Origin: Bacteroidota bacterium
GTDB taxonomy: Bacteria; Bacteroidota; Bacteroidia; Flavobacteriales_F; PHOS-HE28
NCBI GenBank assembly: GCA_018267055.1
Contig: JAFDZF010000014.1
Coordinates: 1 to 64,000, forward strand
Direction of reading: 5' to 3'
Length of the DNA: 64,000 nucleotides
Shown here: positions 2,087 to 6,748 of the stretch, piece by piece
How positions within the stretch are numbered: the first letter of the stretch is position 1
Layout of the letters: every line of letters begins with the position of its first letter
The notes under the pieces: generated by a model
Database searches by the model: none
Seen by the model: the letters and a program-made list of their open reading frames with translations, nothing else
What the model was told of the DNA's origin: nothing
Program-made: the position numbers and the translations under genes

Positions 2087-2647
2087 ATGGTCCGTGACGC
2101 GCTCATAGCCGACTGCATCCGCGGGGAACCGCGTGCCGAGGAAGAGCTCTATCGGGCCCTGCATCCCCTGATGATGTCGATCTGCACGCGCTATGAACGC
2201 AACCGCCAGGATGCAGCGGCCCGCATGAACCAGGGCTTCCTCAAGGTGCTCCGGAACCTGCACAAGCGCAAGCCCGATGTGCCCTTCGAACCCTGGGTGC
2301 GGCGGATCATGATCAACACCGTGATCGATGGGTTCCGCAAGGACCGCAGCCGCCGGACGACCGAGACCCTGGACATGCCCGAGGACACCACCGGAAGCAG
2401 CGACGTGAACGAATACCTGCAGCACATGGAAGCCGAAGCCTTCGCGGACCTGTTGCACCGCGTCCCCCCGATGTCGCGGAACGTGTTCAACCTTTTCGCC
2501 ATCGACGGGTTCAGCCACGCCGAGATCGCCGGGCAGCTCGGCATCAGTGAAGGCACGTCCAAGTGGCACGTGGCCCACGCACGCACCATCCTGCAACGGG
2601 CCATCGCGCAGCTCGCCCTCAACAACGTCCATCTCGTGAAGCCATGA
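2087..2647 (+). CDS. ECF-type RNA polymerase sigma factor
   Basis: This 186-residue protein has the two-domain ECF layout. A region 2 helix set (residues about 10-85, with MNQGFLKVLRNLHK and WVRRIMINTVIDGFRKDRSR) is joined by a short linker to a region 4 helix-turn-helix (about 125-178, FSHAEIAGQLGISEGTSKWHVAHAR). It would direct RNA polymerase to a small regulon. Its stop overlaps the start of the next gene (ATGA), so the two are probably translated together and functionally linked, the neighbour being a likely membrane-bound regulator. Family assignment is secure; the signal and targets are not visible. Confidence 0.9.
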   Translation: MVRDALIADCIRGEPRAEEELYRALHPLMMSICTRYERNRQDAAARMNQGFLKVLRNLHKRKPDVPFEPWVRRIMINTVIDGFRKDRSRRTTETLDMPEDTTGSSDVNEYLQHMEAEAFADLLHRVPPMSRNVFNLFAIDGFSHAEIAGQLGISEGTSKWHVAHARTILQRAIAQLALNNVHLVKP

Positions 2648-4455
2648 GCAAGCAGAACCACTTCGACGAACTCGCCCGGCGCAAGCTGGAGGAGCGGCAG
2701 TTCCCTTTCGATGAGGCGCAGTGGCAGGCCGCACGACAGGCGATCCGGGCCGAGCGCAACAAACGGCGCGCCGGCGGCTGGGCCCTGGCCGGCTGCGTGG
2801 TGCTCCTCGCCGGGCTGGCCCTGCTCTGGTGGCCGGCGGGCGAAGGGGACGAACACACCATCACCGCCACGGACATCCCCGGCCAGGCGCCTCCCGAAGC
2901 CCTCGCCCCGAACAGCACCTGGACCGACGGCACGGATGAACGTACGGCCACCACGCACGCACCGGGATCGCCGGTGACCACCGCGGAAGAGCTGGCGGCC
3001 CCGACGCCGATGACCCCGCCTGTCAGCGATGCCTCCTCCACTGAAAAAGCCGCAGCCAAGTCAACGACTGTCGCGCTCCGAACCTCCCCCGCACCTGCCG
3101 GATCGCCGATGCCGCAGCATCCGGGCGAACACCCGTCCACCACGACGGTCCACGCCGCACCCGCGATCACCGGCACTTCGACCATGGACGTGACGCGGCC
3201 TGCGTCCCCGGAGGCGGAGCACACCAGCGTGGCCCATGTACCCGCCAGCAGCGATGCCGGACCTGGAACGGAGGCCGCACCACAGCCCACCGTCGGGGGA
3301 TCGATCGCGGCCGCAACGGAGCCGTCCCTCGCGAACGATCCGCCGCAGGATCCGCTGGGACCACCGGCGAAAGAAGCAGTGCAACAGCCGGGAACGGTCG
3401 GCACACCGGCGGAGACCCCGCTCGCCATCGTGGATAGCGAAGCCCCCACCGTGGAAGCAACGGCCACCATCGCACAAGAGGCCACCGCCAGGCACACGAC
3501 GGACGAAAACGCGGACCCCGCCACCCCGTCCACGACGGAACGCACCCCGCCCCCGGCCACGCAGGACACGATACAGCCCGGATCGCTTGCCACCGCCGCT
3601 GCGGACAGCCTGCCGCCCGCTCCCGGCACACCGAACGACACGACCCAGGCTGCGCTCCCACCGGCCCTGATGCTGCCCCTGGTCGCCGCGCCATCGCCCT
3701 GGGAGCTCACCGCCTGGGGTGGTGCGCTGTCCTCCACCAGCCGTTACACCGGCCCGGACAGCGAGGAGTGGAACAACGCCAGTTCCGGCGCGCGTTCCTC
3801 CGCCTTCGGCCTGGAGCTGATGCACATGGGCCGGCACTTCGGCATCGGCACCGGCGTGCATTACGTCACCTATGCCGAGCAGTTCGATGCGGAGGCCGCC
3901 TACCGCCTGAGCGAAAGCTGGCGCCGGGTGTACTTCCTGACGCCGGTGGACACGGCCATCTTCTTCATCACCGACACCATCGACCAAGGCGGCGAGCTGG
4001 TGTACCAGGGGATCTCCCGGGACACCACGGTGCTGGTGCTGGGCTCGCGGATGGAGAACACCGTGACGGCCACCAAGCAGCGCGATGCGCGCCGGCAGCT
4101 GAACCGGGTGAGCTACGTGGAGGTGCCGCTGCTGCTGGACGCCCACGTGGTGTGCGGCCGCTGGAGCTTCGGCCTCATCGGCGGGCCCACCATCGGCCTG
4201 CTGTCCGGGCGGTACGGTGCTTTGCCGAACCAGGCGAACGATGGCTACAGCGACCTCGGCGATCGCGCGTTCCGCTCGCTGATGTTCGGCTATACGGCAC
4301 GCGTCTATGCCCGCTTCCGGGTGGGCGACCGGTGGTCGCTCGGGCTGGAGCCCTCCCTGCGCGGCCAGCTGGCGTCGGCCTTCAGCGATGGGGTGCTCAC
4401 ACGGCGCACGCAGGCCCTCGGCGGACTATTGAGCTTCACGTACCGGCTGCGGTAG
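2644..4455 (+). CDS. Membrane-anchored protein with long Pro/Thr/Ala linker and C-terminal outer-membrane beta-barrel
   Basis: This 603-residue protein starts at the ATG overlapping the sigma-factor stop; an upstream in-frame extension lies inside the sigma gene and is rejected. Residues 1-43 are charged and cytoplasmic-looking (DELARRKLEERQFPFDEAQW). Residues 44-63 form one membrane helix. About 70-350 is a low-complexity Pro/Thr/Ala/Ser segment long enough to cross the periplasm. About 355-603 alternates like an outer-membrane beta-barrel (WELTAWGGALSSTSRYTG, then FTYRLR at the C-terminus). The coupling to the ECF sigma factor and the short cytoplasmic N-terminus suggest an anti-sigma or sensor role spanning both membranes. 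That role is inferred from gene order and topology only. Confidence 0.75.
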   Translation: MSKQNHFDELARRKLEERQFPFDEAQWQAARQAIRAERNKRRAGGWALAGCVVLLAGLALLWWPAGEGDEHTITATDIPGQAPPEALAPNSTWTDGTDERTATTHAPGSPVTTAEELAAPTPMTPPVSDASSTEKAAAKSTTVALRTSPAPAGSPMPQHPGEHPSTTTVHAAPAITGTSTMDVTRPASPEAEHTSVAHVPASSDAGPGTEAAPQPTVGGSIAAATEPSLANDPPQDPLGPPAKEAVQQPGTVGTPAETPLAIVDSEAPTVEATATIAQEATARHTTDENADPATPSTTERTPPPATQDTIQPGSLATAAADSLPPAPGTPNDTTQAALPPALMLPLVAAPSPWELTAWGGALSSTSRYTGPDSEEWNNASSGARSSAFGLELMHMGRHFGIGTGVHYVTYAEQFDAEAAYRLSESWRRVYFLTPVDTAIFFITDTIDQGGELVYQGISRDTTVLVLGSRMENTVTATKQRDARRQLNRVSYVEVPLLLDAHVVCGRWSFGLIGGPTIGLLSGRYGALPNQANDGYSDLGDRAFRSLMFGYTARVYARFRVGDRWSLGLEPSLRGQLASAFSDGVLTRRTQALGGLLSFTYRLR

Positions 4456-4509: not shown

Positions 4510-5178
4510 ATGGGATCCGACCTGCTCCTCCTGACCGTATCCGTCCTATTGCTCGGACACTCCAGCATGGCCCAGAACACCACCCCCGATCCAAGCGCGG
4601 AGGATGCAGCGATGCACCGGAGCTTGCCCGATGGGACAGGACAGGTCACCGACCTGGAGCACCTGCCGGCCATCGTTCGTCCCGGCGTGGTCCGCACGGT
4701 GATCGAGATCCCCGCCGGCACCAGCGACAAGCGGCAGTACGACGCCGCCACCAATACCTTCCCGGTGGACCTGCGCGAAGGCGAGCCGCGCCGCATCAAG
4801 TTCCTGCCCTATCCGGCCAATTACGGCTTCATTCCGAGCACCCGGATGGACAAGGCCCGGGGCGGCGATGGGGATGCGCTCGACGTGTTCGTCCTCTGCT
4901 CCGCCCTGCCGAGCGGAACAGTGATCGAGGTGGAGCCGATCGGCATCATCGACCTGCTGGACGCGGGCGAGCGGGACGACAAGGTGATCGCCCTGCCGGC
5001 GGACCCCGCCTTGCGCACCGTGGACGCCAAGGATATCCGGGAGCTCCCGGCCGCGGCGCGCGACATCCTGGTGACCTGGCTGCTCCACTACGACCCCGAG
5101 AACACCGCCCAACTGGTCGGCGTGCGCGGGCGCGAGGACGCGTGGGAAGCGGTACAGCACTGGCACGTGGGCCGATAG
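4510..5178 (+). CDS. ppa: Family I inorganic pyrophosphatase with an N-terminal signal-like segment
   Basis: This 222-residue protein would hydrolyse pyrophosphate to two phosphates. The family I signature DGDALDVFV is present (about residues 119-127), as are YPANYGFIPSTR and GERDDKVIALP. Residues 1-22 (MGSDLLLLTVSVLLLGHSSM, then AQ) look like a cleavable signal peptide ending at an Ala-x-Ala-like site, which is unusual for a normally cytoplasmic enzyme; export to the periplasm is inferred. The ATG at 4510 sits 14 nt after a -7 promoter box. Starting further inside would remove the signal but leave no better start before the catalytic domain. Enzyme family is secure; location is moderate. Confidence 0.88.
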   Translation: MGSDLLLLTVSVLLLGHSSMAQNTTPDPSAEDAAMHRSLPDGTGQVTDLEHLPAIVRPGVVRTVIEIPAGTSDKRQYDAATNTFPVDLREGEPRRIKFLPYPANYGFIPSTRMDKARGGDGDALDVFVLCSALPSGTVIEVEPIGIIDLLDAGERDDKVIALPADPALRTVDAKDIRELPAAARDILVTWLLHYDPENTAQLVGVRGREDAWEAVQHWHVGR

Positions 5179-5229: not shown

Positions 5230-5397
5230 TCAGTTCCCGGTCGCTCCATCGGTGGAGCGGGCCTCGTCGTTGTGCCAGCAGGCGTGGTGGTGGCCGCAGC
5301 CGTGGCCGGCCCAGCGCGGGCCGAGGGTGAAGCGGAGGGTGGCGAAAGTGGCCACCGCGAAGGCGAGGACGATCAGGCCTCGTGTCGAGCGTCTCAT
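5230..5397 (-). CDS. Small His/Cys-rich single-pass membrane protein
   Basis: This 55-residue protein starts at the ATG at 5397; a longer in-frame extension overlaps the upstream gene and is rejected. It has one hydrophobic segment (about residues 8-24) followed by a compact cluster GHGCGHHHACWHNDE (about 30-44), which looks able to bind a transition metal. It begins 10 bp after the preceding gene and is the last member of an ECF sigma operon. I do not recognise a family. A role in metal sensing or buffering is inferred only from the His/Cys cluster and the operon. Confidence 0.55.
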   Translation of the reverse strand: MRRSTRGLIVLAFAVATFATLRFTLGPRWAGHGCGHHHACWHNDEARSTDGATGN

Positions 5398-5407
5398 GGT
5401 CGTGGGA

Positions 5408-5698
5408 TCAGGTACGTTCAGCAGTGTTCGGCGGCTCCTGCCAGGGACGGCCGCAGCGCCAGGCGCGGTCCGCGCGGAAGCGGGCACGCTCTTCGTCGCT
5501 CATCGCGTGCCACCGCGCAGCGAACGCCGGACGCCTTCGGGCCCCGAAGCCGAACACCAGCCGGAACAGCAGTCCCAGCAGGAGGATGAGCGCCACCGCG
5601 GGCAGAAGGAAGGGGAAGAAGTAGAGCGCTGCACCGGCGAGCACGCCGCCCAGCGCGAGCCTCCAGAAGGGAGGCCTGTAGGGCATGTACGGTTCCAT
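5408..5698 (-). CDS. Small membrane protein with C-terminal MSDEERxRFR motif
   Basis: This 96-residue protein starts at ATG 5698 (MEPYMPYRPPFWRLALG). Two adjacent hydrophobic stretches (about 11-45) are followed by a basic tail with MSDEERARFRADRAWRCG. The upstream neighbour carries a matching motif, MTDEQRQQMREEWQRRCG, so the two look like paralogues or two halves of one protein. The reading frame of the neighbour runs through almost all of this gene in another frame. A fusion by a single-base shift is possible, because this frame stays open back to 5812. No family or function is recognised. Confidence 0.55.
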   Translation of the reverse strand: MEPYMPYRPPFWRLALGGVLAGAALYFFPFLLPAVALILLLGLLFRLVFGFGARRRPAFAARWHAMSDEERARFRADRAWRCGRPWQEPPNTAERT

Positions 5699-6134
5699 GG
5701 TATTGAAGACGAACGCCCACCGCCGATACTTCGATCCAGCGACGCGAACAGCCGCTGAACCGGGAGCCGCAGCGCCGCTGCCACTCTTCGCGCATCTGCT
5801 GGCGCTGTTCATCGGTCATGTTCTTGCACTTCTCGCGCCACGAGGCGCCCAGGCCGGGGCCTTCACCGTCCGGGGGACCGCCCCACCGGCGCCAGTGCAC
5901 ACCGCCCGGCCCGCCACGCCGGCCATGGAAGCCGCCGAACAGCAGCTTGCACAGCACCAGCAGGCCGACCGCCTTGGGCCACGTGAGCATGGCCCAGCCG
6001 GTGATGCCCGGCACGATCGCGTTCCAGAGCAGCATCACCACCACGCCCAGCACGGCGACGATGGCGATGACGAAGAATGGGATGAGGAAGCGCTTCTTCG
6101 AACGCATCTTCCTCCAGGCTTGAGTGTCCTTCAT
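5418..6134 (-). CDS. Membrane protein of the ECF operon; C-terminal end uncertain (overlaps next gene out of frame)
   Basis: ATG 6134 overlaps the sigma-factor stop (ATGA), which argues for translational coupling. Residues about 12-65 contain two hydrophobic segments, then a Gly/Arg/Trp-rich stretch and the motif MTDEQRQQMREEWQRRCG (about 106-123). From about residue 125 the frame becomes Arg/Ala-rich and runs 281 bp through the next gene in a different frame, with no earlier stop. The natural protein probably ends near residue 130, or is fused to the next product by a frameshift that is either an assembly error or real. The first 125 residues are the reliable part. Function unknown. Confidence 0.5.
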   Translation of the reverse strand: MKDTQAWRKMRSKKRFLIPFFVIAIVAVLGVVVMLLWNAIVPGITGWAMLTWPKAVGLLVLCKLLFGGFHGRRGGPGGVHWRRWGGPPDGEGPGLGASWREKCKNMTDEQRQQMREEWQRRCGSRFSGCSRRWIEVSAVGVRLQYHGTVHALQASLLEARAGRRARRCSALLLPLPSARGGAHPPAGTAVPAGVRLRGPKASGVRCAVARDERRRACPLPRGPRLALRPSLAGAAEHC

Positions 6135-6682
6135 CGGTCTCCGATCAATTCATTGTACAGTGTCCCCAACCGCTCGCGGAGGCGCTGCACCGCGTAGCGC
6201 TTGCGGGATATGATGGTCTTCAGGTTCTCTCCCTGTTCATCCGCGATGGTCTGCAGCGTCTTGTCCTCCAGCTCGTTCTGGATGAAGACGAGGCGCTGCT
6301 TCTCGGGCATCTCCTCCAGCCCGGTCCGCAGCTCTTCCCAGAAGAGGTCGCGCAACATATGCATGTCCGGGTCATCGTCCACGGCGAGCAGGATCTCCTT
6401 GAAGCCGATCCCGCCCTCGTCGTCCTCATAGGCCAGGTCCTCCAGCGCGGCCGTGCGCTTCTTGCGGTAGCGGTCGGTGATCTTGTTCCGGGCCACGCGG
6501 TACAGCCAGCCGCTCACCTGTTCGATCGCCTCGATCTCCGGCTGGTTGCTGAACTGCATCCAGACATCCTGCAGCACGTCCTCCGCATCCGCGTCGGTCG
6601 GTACGCGCCCGCGGATGAAGCCGAACAGCGCACTGCCGTACTGCTTCACCACCCGAGCAATGCCCACTTGTCGTTCGGTCAT
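6131..6682 (-). CDS. ECF-type RNA polymerase sigma factor
   Basis: The ATG at 6682 (MTERQVGIARVVKQYG) gives 183 residues; a GTG at 6709 would add nine. Region 2 is clear (DAEDVLQDVWMQFSNQ, then SGWLYRVARNKITDRYRKKR). An acidic linker (about 75-110, LAYEDDEGGIGF) leads to region 4 (LEEMPEKQRLVFIQNELEDK, then a helix-turn-helix with GENLKTIISRKRYAVQRLRERL). It heads a minus-strand operon with three small membrane proteins, the first overlapping by ATGA. Such operons usually respond to an envelope signal. The His/Cys-rich last gene makes a metal signal a reasonable guess. Confidence 0.9.
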   Translation of the reverse strand: MTERQVGIARVVKQYGSALFGFIRGRVPTDADAEDVLQDVWMQFSNQPEIEAIEQVSGWLYRVARNKITDRYRKKRTAALEDLAYEDDEGGIGFKEILLAVDDDPDMHMLRDLFWEELRTGLEEMPEKQRLVFIQNELEDKTLQTIADEQGENLKTIISRKRYAVQRLRERLGTLYNELIGDR

Positions 6683-6748
6683 TGCGTGGTCCACGGGATC
6701 CCTCGCCACTCTGGGAGGGTTGACGGACGAATCGGGAAATTACTTCAG

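Follow-up and report, generated by a model that had tools for sequence, protein, structure and literature searches.

A four-gene operon in the window (the whole stretch of 64,000 nucleotides of Bacteroidota DNA analysed here) encodes an ECF sigma factor which, together with the small proteins beside it, is a conserved module of Bacteroidota. On balance, we consider it probable that this is an autoregulated stress module in which one membrane protein, MP1, would hold the sigma factor, while a second membrane protein (MP2), a His/Cys-rich peptide and a small heat-shock protein (Hsp20) would constitute the output. The operon lies on the minus strand directly behind pheT, the latter named by eye from the sequence, and its parts are the following.

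6722..6747, minus strand: ECF-type promoter TGAAGTAA-N14-CGTC, upstream of the sigma gene and right after the pheT stop (weight-matrix score 24.5)
6131-6682, minus strand: ECF sigma factor, 183 aa, ATG at 6682 (Pfam Sigma70_r2 and Sigma70_r4)
5766..6134, minus strand: conserved part of MP1, 123 aa, predicted transmembrane hairpin and tail; the open frame continues to 5418
5766..5819, minus strand: MP1 copy of the common tail motif, MTDEQR...RCG (from sequence and hhalign)
5408..5698, minus strand: MP2, membrane protein, 96 aa
5450..5503, minus strand: MP2 copy of the common tail motif, MSDEER...RCG (from sequence and hhalign)
5230..5397, minus strand: HIS peptide, 55 aa, one N-terminal transmembrane stretch and a predicted periplasmic His/Cys-rich tail

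Every element of the initial annotation, which had described a sigma factor followed by paired membrane proteins and a His/Cys-rich peptide, was recovered in place on the minus strand. The genes are one operon with a single promoter in front, and the sigma stop and the MP1 start overlap by 4 nt (ATGA) at 6134. The M(S/T)DE(E/Q)R...RCG tails proposed earlier are indeed common to both membrane proteins (NMTDEQRQQMREEWQRRCG in MP1, AMSDEERARFRADRAWRCG in MP2), but the MP1 open frame does not end at RCG: it continues for another 115 residues, crossing MP2 in a different frame as far as 5418. The conserved parts end in MTDEQRQQMREEWQRRCG (MP1) and MSDEERARFRADRAWRCG (MP2), and the 55-aa peptide contains GHGCGHHHACWHNDE. 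In the two closest relatives MP1 stops 4-12 residues past RCG. Over most of 5418-5765 (minus strand), where the window's MP1 is without its usual stop, three frames are all open. Because the tail similarity is significant and the four genes reappear as a set in numerous genomes, the combination is not a chance assembly. Elsewhere in the window, the plus strand carries another ECF sigma gene with the gene of a 608-aa protein behind it (2087-4455) and, at 4510-5178, an inorganic pyrophosphatase (Pfam E 1.3e-28) that is possibly exported, given its N-terminal signal-like stretch. The 608-aa protein has a short N-terminal segment, a single membrane helix and a long region rich in Pro, Ala and Thr, and it weakly matches the outer-membrane beta-barrel family OMP_b-brl_2 (E 5.8e-5); it might be an anti-sigma factor that extends to the outer membrane.

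The sigma factor of the operon scores above the Pfam cut-offs for Sigma70_r2 (45.1 bits; cut-off 24) and Sigma70_r4 (27.7 bits; cut-off 24.1) and matches the solved RpoE, SigW and SigH. Its 183 residues agree with the ECF (group IV) architecture of sigma2 and sigma4 only at about 180 aa, and the autoregulated promoter with a CGT-type -10 element expected of that group is predicted here from sequence conservation. The protein search with this sigma factor returned 77 loci in species genomes and more from 58 relatives. Examined by HMM were 94 loci (the window, L002-L078, L080-L094 and L107), with the weak sigma matches L095-L106 and L108 (E 1e-11 to 1e-14) and L079, which is the window itself, excluded; since L083 repeats L003 and L107 repeats L076 (identical upstream sequence), the distinct loci number 92.

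Conservation of the linkage is strongest for MP1, which the HMM places at most 100 nt behind the sigma gene in 85 of the 94 loci. In four additional loci MP1 had escaped the filter (L016, L027 and L033) or is interrupted by a frameshift (L015), and MP1 adjoins sigma in 88 of the 92 distinct loci. At L090 the sequence ends 147 nt past sigma, and the same genome has an MP1 on another contig; at L076 with its repeat L107 (one species), L077 and L078, Hsp20 stands in the place of the adjacent MP1. The genomes of L077 and L078, both Rhodothermales/Rhodothermia MAGs, gave no MP1 match anywhere, so the sigma factor is able to exist without MP1. In the reciprocal direction, a profile built from 62 MP1s and run on 395 genomes of the phylum yielded 62 matches in 61 genomes, each of which was inspected: 61 of the 62 adjoin a sigma gene (sigma HMM E below 1e-4), with the order swapped to MP1 before sigma in L192, L198 and L203, and the sole exception, L217, is a weak match. 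Five of these partners (L204, L206, L208, L209, L213) belong to a distant sigma subfamily (E about 1e-18 to 1e-22), hence the sigma-MP1 partnership is wider than the window's sigma factor. A second or third MP1-like membrane protein is encoded behind sigma-MP1 at L007, L021 and L075, which suggests tandem duplication.

The remaining genes are distributed differently. Among the 94 loci the His peptide occurs in 36, always behind a second membrane protein, Hsp20 in 25 (an assignment confirmed by Pfam in both proteins tested) and a small protein with the motif WNFDLED.D.ILRV, here termed WNF, in 7. A close sigma factor (E about 1e-80 or better) is present in 8 of the 35 genomes of the window's genus, its own included, and six of these eight loci are of the WNF type, with the tail motif doubled and neither MP2 nor peptide. 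The WNF protein, which had no Pfam match in two sequences tested, replaces MP2 and peptide in L080, L081, L082, L084, L085, L086 and L068 and is present also behind more distant sigma-MP1 pairs. Homologous sigma factors lacking these neighbours, named at the outset as what would speak against the association, thus exist for one half of it: MP1 is kept almost always, whereas MP2 and peptide are present at only a minority of the sigma loci, and most same-genus relatives with the sigma factor have another protein in their place. The notion of paired membrane proteins likewise holds for the common tail but not for the arrangement, MP1 being nearly always beside sigma and MP2 usually behind a promoter copy of its own. 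The evidence separates MP1 as a regulator-like partner from MP2 as a sigma-driven product.

That separation involves a conserved promoter and its placement. At least 150 nt before sigma was available for 92 of the 94 loci, and AGTA-N15-CGT is found in 56 of these 92 upstream regions, compared with a mean of 1.06 and a maximum of 5 in 200 mononucleotide shuffles. The consensus before sigma homologs is TTAAAGTAA-N14-CGTCTTC, the spacing being nearly always 14, and the window's site, TGAAGTAATTTCCCGATTCGTCCGTC (6722-6747), is the sole exact match in its genome. L077 and L078 retain a TAGAGTAA/TAAAGTAA-N15-CGTC site. No promoter pattern was found at the spacings tried in 32 of the 92 regions, including several from Spirosoma and the WNF-type loci of the same genus; the latter show, by eye, a similar yet different box (TTAGCGTA...CCGT). 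A weight matrix built from 41 sigma sites and run on all 94 loci (727,754 bases) located 64 sites ahead of sigma, largely a consequence of how the matrix was built, and 51 ahead of MP2, of an MP1-like second protein or of Hsp20, these in 46 of the 94 loci. This second promoter copy is found about 1 kb further downstream, as a rule 20-50 nt ahead of MP2. Just 5 other sites were obtained, and the opposite strand gave 1 in 727,754 bases; three of the 5 belong to Elizabethkingia loci (L022, L023, L028), at a distance of some 390 nt from the Hsp20 gene downstream, and the L066 sigma promoter, its gene start misplaced, accounts for another. Situated behind the second promoter, the optional genes are understood as the output of the system. 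In the window, no second promoter site was found.

The strict pattern gave 40 sites in 29 genomes as against 6 with the reversed pattern, and the downstream genes were read in 14 stretches. Single sites precede genes for an ABC transporter, a nitroreductase and a metallo-beta-lactamase-fold protein; two more, named by eye, involve a glycosyltransferase-like protein and the inside of an aconitase-like gene. Given 6 hits in the reversed control, some of these single sites are due to chance. FtsH was considered as a core target and rejected: of 27 rsfS loci, a single one, in one genome, has a strong site ahead of rsfS-ftsH, and another, L238, has a weaker score of 15.9 at a plausible position. 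A regulon allowing one mismatch in the window's genome was likewise discarded, the 6 matches comparing with 18 in the reversed control, so that only the exact site counts there. None of the three hsp20 genes in that genome carries the promoter site and no second promoter was found there; control of Hsp20 is therefore unsupported for this particular organism.

The relationship between MP1 and MP2 is confined to the tail. Because early iterated HMMs for the two proteins had merged via this common segment, it was retested with separate alignments, of which hhalign aligned the tail only (30 columns, probability 97.9%, E 4e-13). The AlphaFold model of MP1 (pLDDT 73.5, pTM 0.34) predicts two membrane-length helices and a helix-turn-helix tail, with helices at 17-44, 52-66, 95-104 and 108-122; that of MP2 has a tail resembling MP1's and one 40-residue helix, which could cross the membrane once or twice. 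Of 85 MP1 sequences, 84 carry a net positive charge at the N-terminus and 83 where the tail begins, and the mean loop charge is 0.1; from this pattern both termini are predicted to be inside (cytoplasmic). Known families offer little to compare. The window's MP1, MP2 and peptide have no Pfam family above cut-off and no NCBIfam family, and none of 25 MP2s matches any Pfam family at E 0.01. Against the PDB, the MP1 structure model found nothing at E below 5 and the MP1 profile gave chance HMG-box matches only. Anti-sigma families are absent from the Pfam and NCBIfam matches of 62 MP1 sequences: MP1 has neither a recognisable class I anti-sigma domain nor HxxxCxxC in the family consensus, and set against class II (CnrY-like) proteins it presents a predicted two-helix tail with no PDB relative. 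As the near-obligate, translationally coupled membrane partner within the sigma operon, MP1 is most simply read as an anti-sigma factor; it is probably a candidate membrane-bound anti-sigma factor from a family absent from Pfam and NCBIfam.

One alternative that we regard as unlikely makes MP1, MP2 and the peptide all stress effectors that stabilise the inner membrane, with sigma activity set by its own level or by a factor encoded elsewhere. The tail common to MP1 and MP2, though MP2 usually lies behind its own promoter, would fit this, as would the sigma factors without MP1 in Rhodothermia; and amplification could come from autoregulation alone. MP1 is, however, near-obligate in both search directions where MP2, peptide and Hsp20 are optional, which is the pattern expected for a regulator. 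A different doubt concerns the window itself, in which MP2 and peptide might be decaying or unexpressed and only sigma-MP1 functional. The MP1 frame that crosses MP2 without its usual stop, the same-genus sigma relatives mostly devoid of MP2 and peptide, and the missing second promoter all point that way; but both proteins retain the family consensus and the hydrophobic stretch (53-55% identity to L002/L003 for MP2, 51-52% for the peptide, which also keeps its conserved Cys), and we judge such decay highly improbable.

The chemistry of the peptide bears on a further alternative. All 36 peptides have a positive start and one hydrophobic stretch, from which a periplasmic His/Cys tail is predicted; the tails average 15% His and 6% Cys, and one Cys column is at least 90% conserved among 26 sequences. 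In the N-terminal arms of linked Hsp20s (n=25), His amounts to 11% compared to 2% in other Hsp20s (n=31; Mann-Whitney p 1.4e-6), with the qualification that the sequences are related and the arm ends were set slightly differently between the sets; 3 of the 31 are regulon copies (L274, L275, L283), which works against the reported difference. The His content suggests metal or pH chemistry, and a dedicated metal response could be envisaged, by analogy to CnrYXH, wherein the peptide senses or binds periplasmic Zn, Cu or Ni. Weak matches to Pfam Metal_resist in 5 of 62 MP1s (best 8.4e-5) would be in line with it; DUF3106 gave a weak match in 1 of the 62. Against it stand the 58 of 94 loci without the peptide, the window's MP1, which like its MP2 is not matched by Metal_resist at E 0.01 (the peptide had no match at E 0.1), and the MP1 tail, predicted cytoplasmic rather than periplasmic. 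Among the predicted targets read there is, moreover, no metal transporter or CnrX-type sensor. A dedicated metal response seems somewhat unlikely. Of the two signals suggested by the initial annotation, an envelope-responsive system fits the output of membrane proteins and Hsp20; a metal-responsive one has its basis in the His/Cys content of the exported peptide and in the His-rich arms of the linked Hsp20s, but lacks a linked metal transporter or known metal sensor.

From the conserved linkage, the promoter with its placement and the common tail, we infer that the stress module operates as follows. Co-translated with sigma, MP1 would span the inner membrane as a hairpin of two helices and expose both termini to the cytoplasm; most likely it captures and retains the sigma factor through the helical hairpin at its C-terminus (FREKW..M[ST]DEER..FK..W..RC). 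Sigma would be set free by stress on the membrane or on protein folding, possibly caused by metal ions. It could then drive its own operon at the TTAAAGTAA-N14-CGTC promoter, and in many species it would use the second promoter copy to express MP2, the His/Cys peptide and the small heat-shock protein. MP2, sigma-driven and with the same tail as MP1, may be a feedback copy. In its boldest form, to which we give tentative credence somewhat short of even, the proposal makes MP1 the founding member of a new, Bacteroidota-wide anti-sigma class, whose transmembrane hairpin carries a cytoplasmic C-terminal helical hairpin that docks sigma, and MP2 a sigma-induced second dock for delayed negative feedback.

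Our study has importance in delineating what appears to be a stress switch found across a whole phylum and undescribed as a system. No account of the module exists in the literature searched, although the current ECF classification lay outside that search and the group may already be numbered there; the earlier inability to match the operon to a named system is borne out by the family libraries and papers covered. In one survey, a class I anti-sigma domain adjoins only 6% of Bacteroidetes ECFs as against 32% over all phyla (PMC7406223), and a review notes that ECFs with unknown neighbours exist (PMC8103513). If true, the new MP1 class would help explain the rarity of recognised anti-sigma neighbours among Bacteroidetes ECFs. 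Throughout the phylum it is possible to name the sigma factor, its near-obligate membrane partner, the promoter sequence and the probable targets, which makes the control of such ECFs a directly testable question, and a single stress signal would tie together a His-armed small heat-shock protein and an exported His/Cys peptide.

Among known systems, CpxP/Spy and the DUF3106 LTxxQ proteins share an LTxxQ/MSxEER-like helical motif with MP1 and MP2. CpxP and Spy are periplasmic and soluble, whereas MP1 and MP2 are membrane proteins with tails predicted to be cytoplasmic. The SM6 promoters and ECF regulons of Flavobacterium psychrophilum differ in that their targets include T9SS and Band-7 genes, and Hsp20 is never named in the main text of that study (PMC9723704). 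CnrYXH of Cupriavidus metallidurans (class II, metal sensing) resembles the module in that a small membrane protein bears a short anti-sigma-like segment, and in a possible link to metals; in the window, however, no CnrX-type periplasmic metal sensor is encoded with sigma, and the soluble segment of MP1 is at the opposite protein end. With regard to RpoE-RseA type pairs, MP1 is distinct in having no recognised class I domain and in that conservation of its soluble portion lies in a short helical hairpin at the C-terminus instead of an N-terminal domain; the common features are an ECF sigma gene, here with predicted autoregulation, that has the gene of a membrane protein behind it, the logic of envelope stress and a chaperone output.
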